Part shown: positions 14,461 through 18,561 of the stretch, one piece after another
Layout: each line of letters begins with the position of its first letter
How positions within the stretch are numbered: the stretch's first letter is position 1
From: Candidatus Bathyarchaeota archaeon
GTDB taxonomy: Archaea; Thermoproteota; Bathyarchaeia; Bathyarchaeales; Bathycorpusculaceae
DNA length: 33,254 bases
NCBI GenBank assembly: GCA_003141855.1
Contig: PLNS01000013.1
Coordinates: forward strand, 85,370 to 118,623
Direction: 5' to 3'
Position numbers and translations under genes: made by a program
The notes under the pieces: generated by a model
The model's input: the letters and a program-made list of their open reading frames with translations, nothing else
Database searches by the model: none
What the model was told of the DNA's origin: nothing

Positions 14461-14494
14461 CCCTAACAATACATCATCTAAAAGTGTGAAGATT

Positions 14495-15547
14495 ATGTCC
14501 GAAGACACCGACGTTGAAGCGCAGGAAAACAGCGAAGAACCAGAAGAATCCATACTGGAAACAAACAAGAAAAAATACCAGTTCATAGAAGACCTGCCAG
14601 GAGTTGGTCCAGCAACAGCGCAAAAACTCAAAGAACTCGGCTACCACACCGTGGAATCCTTAGCCATGGCAACCAGCCGTGAACTTGAACCAGTCGGAGT
14701 AAGCGAGAAAAAAGCCTTCCAAGTCATTGAAGCTGCACGCTCATCCATCGGCATCTCATTTATCCGAGCAGACGAACTCTTCAAAATGCGCCAAAGCGTC
14801 CTTCGGATAACTACAGGCAGCAAAGCCTTAGACAAACTCGTCGATGGCGGCTTAGAAACCCAAACCATAACAGAATTTTACGGCGAATACGGCAGTGGCA
14901 AAAGCCAAATGTGCCACCAACTATGCATCAACGTCCAGTTGCCTCCAGAAAAAGGCGGACTAAACGGTGCAGCCTTGTACGTTGATACAGAGAACACTTT
15001 TAGACTGGAACGCATAGTGCAGATGGCAAAGTTTGCAGGCTTAGACCCAGCAGAAGCCATTAAGAAAATTATTTACGCTGAAGCCTACACTTCAGACCAC
15101 CAAATGTTCCTTTTAGAAAACGCTGATGAAATAATCAAGGCAAACAACATCAAACTAATCATAGTAGACTCATTAACCGCCCACTTCAGAAGCGAATACA
15201 TCGGAAGAGAAATGCTCGCGCCAAGACAACAAAAACTCAACAAACACATGCACAAACTCATCGCCTTAGCAAGAGCATTCAACGCCGTAGCAGTCGTAAC
15301 CAACCAAGTCATGGCAAAACCAGACCAGTTCTTCGGCGATGCCATTCACCCAATAGGCGGAAACATCGTCGGTCACACAAGCAACACACGAATCTACCTC
15401 AGACGAGCATCCCATGGACCAATACGCATCGCAAGACTAGTTTCAAGTCCATATTTGCCAGAAGGCGAGGAAATCCTTAAAGTAACCGAGAACGGAATAG
15501 AGGATGTCTCTGAAGAAGAGAAAGCAACCAAACCTCGTGGACGCTAA
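14495..15547 (+). CDS. radA: DNA repair and recombination protein RadA
   Basis: About 350 residues from ATG 14495; the frame is open to GTG 14486. After an acidic N-terminal tail comes the helix-hairpin-helix domain (FIEDLPGVGPATAQKLKELG, 30-49), the polymerisation motif FIRADEL (89-95), Walker A GEYGSGKSQ (130-138), Walker B LIIVDSLTAHFRSEY and the DNA-binding loop after TNQVMAKPDQFFGD with HPIGGNIVGH. RadA is the archaeal Rad51 recombinase that forms filaments on single-stranded DNA and drives strand exchange in the cytoplasm. Walker A has Ser where many RadA proteins have Thr, a harmless swap. The upstream TATA box and the 3-base gap to the next gene define an operon of two. Confidence 0.97.
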   Translation: MSEDTDVEAQENSEEPEESILETNKKKYQFIEDLPGVGPATAQKLKELGYHTVESLAMATSRELEPVGVSEKKAFQVIEAARSSIGISFIRADELFKMRQSVLRITTGSKALDKLVDGGLETQTITEFYGEYGSGKSQMCHQLCINVQLPPEKGGLNGAALYVDTENTFRLERIVQMAKFAGLDPAEAIKKIIYAEAYTSDHQMFLLENADEIIKANNIKLIIVDSLTAHFRSEYIGREMLAPRQQKLNKHMHKLIALARAFNAVAVVTNQVMAKPDQFFGDAIHPIGGNIVGHTSNTRIYLRRASHGPIRIARLVSSPYLPEGEEILKVTENGIEDVSEEEKATKPRGR

Positions 15548-15550
15548 AGT

Positions 15551-16021
15551 ATGCCGATTTCACAAGCCTTAGTTACCAGGTACTTCCAGCTCATAGTCAG
15601 CAGGCAATTTACCGAAGCTGAACGCGAGCTGGAGCGAGTCAAACAAAAAATGCAGAAAACCGAATGGAACAGAGGATATTTCAGGGCGCTTTACGGCATG
15701 TATCTTTCACGCAAAAACAGCGCTACAGACGACTATGCATTTTTCTCAAAAATAGATTTAAGTGACAAAGTAAACCTGCATGCTTACCGAAAAGAGTTCC
15801 TCGAACACATGGGCAACGGCTTACATGGAGACTTTGACCGCGGATACTTTTCAGCTTGGGCAGACTGTATGCGTATAATAACGCGAATGGATGTTCCAAG
15901 TCCACAGAACAGTAACGGCAAAGTTGCTGGAGAAGAAGAAAAAATCGAAACGCTAAGAAGCGATAAGAGTCAAGCTACTATAGCGAATTTTCTGCAAAAA
16001 ACTGAAGATAAACAAGAATAA
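15551..16021 (+). CDS. Uncharacterised RadA-operon protein with C-terminal PIP-box-like motif
   Basis: 156 residues starting 3 bases after the radA stop, so almost certainly co-translated with it. Residues 1-110 are helical and rich in charged and aromatic residues (LVTRYFQLIVSRQFTEAERE, WNRGYFRALYGMYLSRKN, FDRGYFSAWADCMRIITRM), with no recognised family or catalytic motif. Residues 111-140 look disordered. The end reads QATIANFLQKTEDKQE (141-156); Q-x-x-I-x-x-F-L matches the PCNA-interacting peptide (QxxhxxF/Y-F/L) and resembles archaeal tails of replication factor C. The position behind radA and the tail suggest a factor linking recombination to the sliding clamp. That role is inference. 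Confidence 0.8.
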   Translation: MPISQALVTRYFQLIVSRQFTEAERELERVKQKMQKTEWNRGYFRALYGMYLSRKNSATDDYAFFSKIDLSDKVNLHAYRKEFLEHMGNGLHGDFDRGYFSAWADCMRIITRMDVPSPQNSNGKVAGEEEKIETLRSDKSQATIANFLQKTEDKQE

Positions 16022-16030
16022 AAGAAAAAT

Positions 16031-16038
16031 GTTTTTTT
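16031..16038 (+). terminator. T-run terminator after the radA operon
   Basis: GTTTTTTT begins 10 bases after the stop of the PIP-tailed gene, in the junction with the leftward membrane gene. Archaeal RNA polymerase commonly stops at such runs. Confidence 0.4.
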
Positions 16039-16333
16039 AACCCATCACTGCATGGATTGCCGTGTAGAACAGCACAAAGAACGCTATCCAACTAAAGAAG
16101 TACATACCTATTGCTGTACTCAAGATTTTTGATTGCTTCTCTATTTTAGTTTTGTAGAATCCTCTTAGGATGTAGTAGGTTATGAAGTAGATGAGTAGGG
16201 CTACTGTTATGCTGTTTAAGAGGGTAGTTATGTCATTTATGCTGCTAAATAATGCAGCTATAACCGCAGTTATTGCCCCTGCAACTATTCCTAAAGCAAC
16301 TCTTAACCAGTAAAGCTGAACTACAGGTGTCAT
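16037..16333 (-). CDS. Small hypothetical membrane protein (three helices)
   Basis: 98 residues with hydrophobic segments at about 8-28 (YWLRVALGIVAGAITAVIAA), 36-57 (LLNSITVALLIYFITYYILR) and 72-96 (LSTAIGMYFFSWIAFFVLFY). The loop GFYKTKIEKQSK between helices 2 and 3 is positive, placing it on the cytoplasmic side. No family function is recognised. It converges with the radA operon. Confidence 0.65.
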   Translation of the reverse strand: MTPVVQLYWLRVALGIVAGAITAVIAALFSSINDITTLLNSITVALLIYFITYYILRGFYKTKIEKQSKILSTAIGMYFFSWIAFFVLFYTAIHAVMG

Positions 16334-16494: not shown

Positions 16495-18561
16495 GTGGAT
16501 GCCTTGCGCAAAAAAGAGTTCTCAAGCTTTGACATTGCCGCAGCAATCAAAGAACTAAAAACAACATTAGCCGATTCCAGAGTGAACAACATCTACCAAC
16601 TCAACGAGAAAACCGTAATCTTCAAACTCCACAAAACAGACAAGCCGCCTATACGACTGGTGATGGAAGCAGGCAGAAGATTACATGCCACCAGCTACGC
16701 TGAAGAAAACCCAGCTGAACCCCCGGCATTCTGCATGGCACTAAGAAAGTATCTGCGTGGCGCCTGGGTGGCTGGCATTGATCAGTTTGAGTTTGAAAGA
16801 ATCGTAACAGTTAGCTTTCGAACCAAAACTGGCCTGTTAAAGCTCGTGGTAGAGCTTTTCGGCGAAGGCAACATCATACTAACAAACGAGCAAAACGTAA
16901 TTATTCACGCGTTAGCCTTCAAAAAAATGCGCGACCGCGACATCCTGCACAACGTAGTTCTTCAGCTTCCGCCTTCAAGCGGCAAAAACCCCTTCAAAGT
17001 AACCCAGAGTGAACTGGAAGAAGCTTTGAAGAATGCTGGCGATGTTGAAGTTGTCAGGCCGTTGGCGCGTTTCTTGGGGGTTGGTGGAGTTTACGCTGAA
17101 GAAATCCTGCTACGAGCCAACGTGGATAAAACCAAGCCCTGCAGCGCTTTGGCAAGCGGTGAAGTTGTGGGGATTTTTGAAGCTCTACAAACCCTGCTGG
17201 CAGCGGTTTCAGGCGGCAACTTGGAGGCTTGCATAGTTTTGGGTGAAGATGGAGACTTTGTGGATGTTGTGCCCATCAAGCTTAAGCGTTATGAGGGCTG
17301 CAAGGTGCAAGTTTACGATTCTTTCAATCAGGCTTTAGACGAATTTTACTTACGGGTTACTGTGGCTGAAAGGGCTGTTGACCGTGTGGAAGTTGACAAG
17401 TTAAAGAAAGAAGCCGAACGGCTAAGACGCGTTGTAGCGGAACAGGAAAAATCCATCCGTGAAGATGAAGCCAAAGCAGAACGAGACAAACTAATCGGTA
17501 ACACCATCTATGCTCACTTCAACGAACTCCAAACATTCCAAGATCAACTCATAAAAGCTAATCAGCAAGGCAAAGACTGGAACACAGTAATCGCTGAAGC
17601 TTTAGCTACAAAGAAAACGGGCAAAATACCTGAAGCCTACATTGAATCGTTTGACGGCAAGAATCTTGCTTTGAACCTTTGCATGGATAGTTTTCATTTT
17701 AGCTTTAGCTTGAGACTTTCGCTTTTTGATAATGCTGCAGAGTATTATGATCGGGGAAAAAAGGCGAAGCAGAAATCTGGTGGCGCATTAACCGCGTTGG
17801 AGAATTCAAAGAAAAAGCTCGCCAAAATCGAACGAGAGTTGCTTCAAGCGGAAGAACTCAAAAGCCTCAAACCAGCCGAAATCATGGAAGCACTCTCTAA
17901 ACGCAAAGTCGCGATGGAGAACAAAGAGTGGTATGAAAAATTCCGCTGGTACACTTCCTCGGATGGTTTCTTGGTGGTTGCTGGCAAAGATACGGTCAGC
18001 AACGAAGTGCTCATAAAAAAGTACACCACACAGGAGGATGCGGTTTTTCACGCTGAAATCACTGGCGCACCCTTCGTCGTCATCAAATCAGAGGGCAAAC
18101 CGATAAGCGAGCAGGCGCTGCGTGAAGCGGGCGAGTTTGCGGCTTCTTTCTCGCGGGCTTGGCGTGAAAACGCCGGTTCAGTAGATGTTTACTGGGTTAA
18201 GCTTGACCAGTTAAGCAAGAGTGGTCCTTCTGGGGAATCGGTTCCTCATGGCGCCTTCTTTGTTGTGGGCAAACGCAACTGGATGCGCAACGTACCTCTT
18301 AGGGTTGCGGTTGGCATAATTGTGGGGGAAGAAACAAGTTTTGTTGGGGGTCCAGTGGAAGCGGTGAAGGCGAAAACCAAAGCGTACCTGGTCATCCTTC
18401 CAGGCGATTTAGCTGGCAAAGAGTTGCTAAAGCAAATGCTCAGATCCTTGATGCTAAAGCTGTCCAAGGAGCAACGGGAAAAGGCAGGTAAAACGTCGAT
18501 TGAACAGGTCAGGGAGTTTGTGCCCTACACGAAAGGTACGATAAATCTGAAAGCAACTTGA
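16495..18561 (+). CDS. rqcH: NFACT/RqcH-family ribosome quality control protein
   Basis: 688 residues. NFACT-N (about 1-180) opens with EFSSFDIAAAIKELKTTLAD, including the conserved Asp13. A helix-hairpin-helix-like segment follows (ARFLGVGGVYAEEILLRANV, 191-210), then a coiled coil (about 285-360, VDKLKKEAERLRRVVAEQEK) and NFACT-R/DUF814 (about 478-600, KFRWYTSSDGFLVVAGKDTV). Family proteins bind the 60S/50S subunit with a stalled peptidyl-tRNA and in many lineages add C-terminal tails. The D-R motif needed for tailing appears as E-R (FEFERIV, Glu101-Arg102). It starts at GTG 16495. A CCCCA/TGGGG repeat just after the stop (18574-18578 and 18587-18591) may mark the end of the transcript. It is a single gene. 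Confidence 0.93.
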   Translation: MDALRKKEFSSFDIAAAIKELKTTLADSRVNNIYQLNEKTVIFKLHKTDKPPIRLVMEAGRRLHATSYAEENPAEPPAFCMALRKYLRGAWVAGIDQFEFERIVTVSFRTKTGLLKLVVELFGEGNIILTNEQNVIIHALAFKKMRDRDILHNVVLQLPPSSGKNPFKVTQSELEEALKNAGDVEVVRPLARFLGVGGVYAEEILLRANVDKTKPCSALASGEVVGIFEALQTLLAAVSGGNLEACIVLGEDGDFVDVVPIKLKRYEGCKVQVYDSFNQALDEFYLRVTVAERAVDRVEVDKLKKEAERLRRVVAEQEKSIREDEAKAERDKLIGNTIYAHFNELQTFQDQLIKANQQGKDWNTVIAEALATKKTGKIPEAYIESFDGKNLALNLCMDSFHFSFSLRLSLFDNAAEYYDRGKKAKQKSGGALTALENSKKKLAKIERELLQAEELKSLKPAEIMEALSKRKVAMENKEWYEKFRWYTSSDGFLVVAGKDTVSNEVLIKKYTTQEDAVFHAEITGAPFVVIKSEGKPISEQALREAGEFAASFSRAWRENAGSVDVYWVKLDQLSKSGPSGESVPHGAFFVVGKRNWMRNVPLRVAVGIIVGEETSFVGGPVEAVKAKTKAYLVILPGDLAGKELLKQMLRSLMLKLSKEQREKAGKTSIEQVREFVPYTKGTINLKAT

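Follow-up and report, generated by a model that had tools for sequence, protein, structure and literature searches.

Directly downstream of the recombinase gene radA, a Candidatus Bathyarchaeota genome encodes a small helical protein, here called X, which by sequence carries a PIP-like motif in its tail. The partnership with PCNA is putative. The libraries searched contain no description of the X family (it has no entry in Pfam, NCBIfam or PDB), as the preliminary description of this DNA had proposed. The motif is genuine and confined to certain lineages, probably as an addition to an older protein of the RadA neighbourhood. The best explanation of the whole is that X is a RadA accessory adaptor with a PCNA tether acquired in Bathyarchaeia, and we give it an even chance. 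Its parts carry different weights. X probably binds PCNA. Contact with RadA, which we infer from gene order only, is somewhat more probable than its absence. That both belong to one function is at best an even bet.

The window (the whole stretch of DNA analysed, 33,254 nt) belongs to a MAG with a 2.39-Mb assembly. The features considered here are the following:

14486 to 15547, plus strand: radA, recombinase RadA of 353 amino acids (PRK04301, 457.8 bits; TIGR02236, 439.5 bits; both above cut-off).
15551 to 16021, plus strand: gene X, an open reading frame of 156 codons conserved in relatives, encoding an undescribed helical protein of 156 amino acids.
15551 to 15886, plus strand: conserved helical core of X, residues 1-112 (AlphaFold2, pLDDT 87.8, pTM 0.82).
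15887 to 15961, plus strand: variable linker of X, residues 113-137, predicted disordered (low pLDDT, conservation 0.40).
15962 to 15994, plus strand: tail motif of X, DKSQATIANFL, residues 138-148; the candidate PIP-box QATIANFL is residues 141-148, nt 15971-15994.
15995 to 16018, plus strand: last eight residues of X, QKTEDKQE, non-conserved (conservation 0.21).
16037 to 16333, minus strand: EMC6-like small membrane protein, convergent with X; homologues beside X match PF07019.
16495 to 18561, plus strand: NFACT/Rqc2-family protein (PF05833, 235.7 bits; PF05670, 113.4 bits), conserved in position.

Three nucleotides separate the X gene from the radA stop (stop at 15547, start at 15551), a spacing that the preliminary description gave correctly. 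The window RadA has an intact Walker A (GEYGSGKS) and appears by sequence to be a bona fide recombinase of the active type. Walker A is also kept in the RadA proteins neighbouring X in relatives. The C-terminus of the window RadA has no PIP-box. Neither has any RadA tail in the loci examined, which disposes of the idea that RadA bears the motif where X has none, and leaves room for X to supply the clamp contact. On the other side of X, the window's own EMC6-like copy, too diverged alone, has no significant Pfam match. It is identified through its homologues beside X, because these exceed the Pfam cut-off (PF07019 EMC6, 34.1 and 31.2 bits; cut-off 23.3).

Searches with the window X against Pfam, NCBIfam, PADLOC, PHROGs and PDB sequences gave no convincing match. 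X matches no enzyme family in Pfam at E≤1 or in NCBIfam, so the earlier statement that it has no enzymatic motif holds. Scanning 53 diverse members gave only scattered weak matches, some of them TPR-like. More precisely, the TPR profiles matched only single members at E around 0.004-0.05, none confidently. The likeness to TPR-like repeat proteins consists of helix pairs and a repeated GY..AL-type packing stretch; Foldseek returned no TPR protein with support. In the open-access literature, our search turned up neither a description, for this phylum, of a protein encoded downstream of radA nor a dedicated partner of RadA there that bears a clamp motif. The loading and removal of RadA in archaea are poorly understood. 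The X family merits a name and a structure even if the bridge is not real.

X is present in all 61 relatives' genomes searched, and profile searches found it in 111 of the 114 good genomes of the class Bathyarchaeia. Elsewhere in the phylum it occurs in about 49 of about 169 sampled genomes (profile search, counted from its output). In several near-complete genomes of other families, X was not found even with a broader profile. The X-less genomes examined from those families encode a RadA of more distant type, with other neighbours.

AlphaFold2, with an alignment of the window's family, predicts with confidence a five-helix core (residues 1-116, pLDDT 87.8, pTM 0.82); the alignments used for folding were shallow, consisting of the window and the related loci found for it only. 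The predicted helices span residues 5-16, 20-33, 38-55, 73-88 and 94-112. Residues 117-142 have pLDDT below 50, and the tail after them about 50. Foldseek against PDB gave no supported fold match for the core (best E 2.3). EW..GY..AL.G in one half of X and DFDRGYF.AW.D in the other occupy corresponding places (hhalign P=82%, 15 columns), a hint of a weak or degenerate internal repeat. A diverged X paralogue is present in one genus, away from radA (L085, 3050-3490, minus strand; L087, 2968-3408, minus strand). In it, an N-terminal C2H2-like zinc finger (CxxC...HxxxxH) is fused to the X core, with weak Pfam support (E about 0.001-0.002). The finger hints weakly at a nucleic-acid setting.

QATIANFL fits the pattern Q-x-x-h-x-x-a-h of the PIP-box consensus, archaeal and eukaryotic (PMC3504372, PMC6881253). 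The preliminary description had X ending in these residues. The fit to the pattern stands, but the ending is slightly off, as eight residues (QKTEDKQE) follow before the C-terminus. The motif lies in a predicted flexible region near the C-terminus, the placement looked for in a PIP-box. Every one of the 64 proteins of the window's family (f1) matches Q-x-x-[ILM]-x-x-[FY]-[hydrophobic/aromatic]. Position 1 is Q and position 4 is I, M or L in 64/64. Position 7 is always aromatic (F in 62, Y in 2). Position 8 is L in 44/64, the window included, and aromatic in 14. Neither the FL nor the Y form speaks against PCNA binding, because 43% of confirmed PCNA motifs miss one aromatic (PMC6881253).

The rest of the tail behaves differently. 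Within f1, the mean top-residue frequency is 0.82 for the core and 0.77 for the motif (residues 137-149); it falls to 0.40 across the linker and to 0.21 in the residues behind the motif. The distance from core to motif varies by 18 residues among the 64 relatives, and 1-66 residues follow the motif. The motif is kept in 64/64 although the linker changes both its sequence and its length, so selection appears to act on the motif itself. QALVTRYF (residues 5-12) also matches the pattern but was discarded as a PIP-box: it falls within helix 1 of the predicted folded core, and similar forms occur in tail-less relatives. This match is probably structural.

Outside f1, the motif is present in some sister families only. 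Family f2 has QTDIF[QR]FL in 3/3 proteins, f7 has Q-T-x-h-x-x-[YW] in 9/9, and the f25 tail reads QTTLDKF. In f4 and f6 it is mixed among members. No PIP-box is present in X of f3, f5, f8, f9 or the other class families examined, nor in the X tails of the sampled families elsewhere in the phylum. Thirteen of 23 tails outside f1 match Q-x-x-[ILMV]-x-x-[FYW], whereas shuffling the individual tails gives an expectation of 0.2; the tails were picked mostly one per genus, and their shared ancestry means that the shuffle value overstates independence. In family f30 (L148-L150, L155, L157), X has, in place of a PIP-box, a longer C-terminal tail rich in lysine.

The window's genome contains a PCNA gene, and its FEN1 ends in ...KVSLEKWFG. 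The likeness to clamp-loader tails claimed earlier is not seen in this genome's best match to the clamp-loader large subunit (RFC-large), whose frame ends in ...DFLIKMNRF, without a PIP-box.

In the adaptor explanation, radA and X would form one transcription unit, and X would thus be made together with RadA. The core (about 112 residues) probably engages RadA or RadA-bound DNA. In the window's family, the flexible linker would carry the PIP-box, which would dock on PCNA. X would in this way recruit or modulate recombination where the clamp marks the DNA, for example at forks that have stalled or are restarting, or in repair synthesis after strand invasion. Outside the PIP-bearing lineages, the role of the core would have to work without the PCNA tether. 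If the bridge is true, it would be one meeting place of replication and recombination in archaea.

Several results argue for the adaptor. In the order-level loci with the primary copy, and in about 26/40 loci outside the class, X lies on the strand of radA within tens of bases of it, often overlapping. The motif is fixed in f1 while the linker drifts, and it recurs in f2, f7 and f25. In the structural model it adjoins a predicted disordered arm, and the genome has the PCNA gene. Against it, most of the X family lacks a PIP-box, and the core persists without adjacent radA. Likewise, outside the class the linkage to EMC6 exceeds that to radA, and no fold match gives a molecular function.

A bolder reading is less likely than not. 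X might be the founder of an undescribed archaeal family of RadA filament regulators that gained a PCNA tether in Bathyarchaeia, with recombination controlled at the sliding clamp. It would then be a prokaryotic functional parallel to the PIP-box RAD51 regulators, with an unrelated helical fold. The eukaryotic example is PARI, a RAD51-interacting PIP-box anti-recombinase. It resembles X in the proposed function, a connection between recombinase and PCNA. However, PARI is a large helicase-like protein, and it is likened to X by this proposed function, not by sequence.

The same core with its tail present, degenerate or absent in sister lineages is a natural experiment. In another explanation, the core might work with RadA everywhere, and the PIP tail might do a separate clamp-dependent job, such as holding X at the replisome, instead of bridging RadA and PCNA. 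The conservation of the core with radA in PIP-less lineages fits this, and so does the variable presence of the motif among families within a single order. Nevertheless, the f1 motif is fully conserved on the product of a gene that tightly follows radA, and bridging is therefore the simpler reading in that family. We consider the separate job unlikely, with roughly one chance in five or a little better.

The gene order of the block is radA, X, the convergent EMC6-like membrane gene and NFACT. In the window's order, every locus examined has the primary X copy after radA and on its strand, and in nearly all of them the two genes overlap or lie within tens of bases of each other. Adjacency outside the class was counted from scripted tables of loci and from reading those tables. 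There, X is adjacent to radA in about 26/40 loci sampled, and EMC6 lies within 100 nt of X in about 36/40, which makes it the commoner link. X is away from radA in about 14/40 of these loci and in family f16 inside the class. In f30, f32, f47, f52 and f56, EMC6 and mostly NFACT stay beside X and radA is elsewhere. The genomes searched from these five families and from f16 encode RadA elsewhere, some of more distant type. The radA-X linkage is thus widespread and strong, but not absolute, because some lineages hold X beside EMC6 and NFACT with RadA elsewhere. EMC6 and NFACT are neighbours of X as faithful as radA. In much of the phylum, the EMC6 homologue (16037-16333, minus strand, in the window) adjoins radA/X and NFACT, so that EMC6, NFACT and a recombination gene are linked there.

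These counts bear on the claim, made in the preliminary description, that X is a RadA-PCNA adaptor. It had named homologs without the tail, or found away from radA, as grounds for refutation. Many homologs are of one or the other kind, so the claim is refuted in its general form. At the level of the lineage it is not refuted: primary copies stay next to radA in all order-level loci examined, and the motif is kept throughout f1 and recurs in some sister families, though it is absent from most class families and from all those sampled elsewhere.

The radA linkage could also be hitch-hiking. X would then act with EMC6 and NFACT, in membrane insertion and ribosome quality control, and the tail would serve another partner. 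That EMC6 and NFACT remain beside X where radA is elsewhere supports this explanation. On the other hand, EMC6 is convergent with X and so is not co-transcribed with it, whereas X lies on the strand of radA with a 3-nt gap or an overlap. In addition, the tail matches the PIP consensus very well (PMC6881253), and in f16 X is mostly without NFACT and partly without EMC6. We regard hitch-hiking as improbable, at about one chance in five.

Two described archaeal systems resemble the radA-X pair. NucS/EndoMS, which is co-transcribed with radA in Thermococcus, is a clamp-interacting DNA-repair protein in an archaeal radA transcription unit (PMC8228993). It differs in being a nuclease, whereas X matches no nuclease family and comes from another archaeal lineage. 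The PolB2-iRadA-PPB2 set also includes a small helical protein whose gene accompanies that of a RadA homologue, and clamp motifs occur in some members only, on iRadA or PolB2 (PMC11791011). In that set PPB2, a three-helix trimer whose N-terminus reads MGRT, lies next to a catalytically dead iRadA (PMC11791011). In contrast, the X locus has an active-type RadA and the motif on the small protein. X was rejected as PPB2 (arCOG07300) on the Walker A of its RadA, its five main helices and its MPISQAL N-terminus. X belongs to neither NucS nor PPB2; it differs from them in predicted architecture, partner and motif placement.

RecX is a recombinase modulator, often encoded next to recA. It resembles X as a small helical protein directly downstream of a recombinase. 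No RecX family matches X in Pfam at E≤1, and no RecX structure is among the Foldseek PDB matches. That X is a divergent relative of PPB2, or an archaeal counterpart of RecX, is very improbable: X is small, helical and beside the RadA gene, and the set includes a clamp motif, as PolB2 mutasomes do (PMC11791011), but the helix number, the N-terminus, the RadA type and the RecX searches all speak against it.

In one locus (L185, 857-2164, minus strand), a single frame reads through RadA and X. We did not take it as proof of interaction. Because the RadA part misses its last ~45 residues, the frame more likely reflects a deletion or an assembly error than a true fusion.

The RadA proteins themselves vary. 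Several genomes (G048, G096, G310, G092 and G109) encode two or three RadA-like proteins that differ markedly in type, with 46-69% identity to the window RadA, and X is not tied to one type. In four loci (L139, L162, L167 and L194), the radA frames have 700-860 codons, against the usual of about 340, and in two of them Walker A was not found. These long frames are probably radA inteins.
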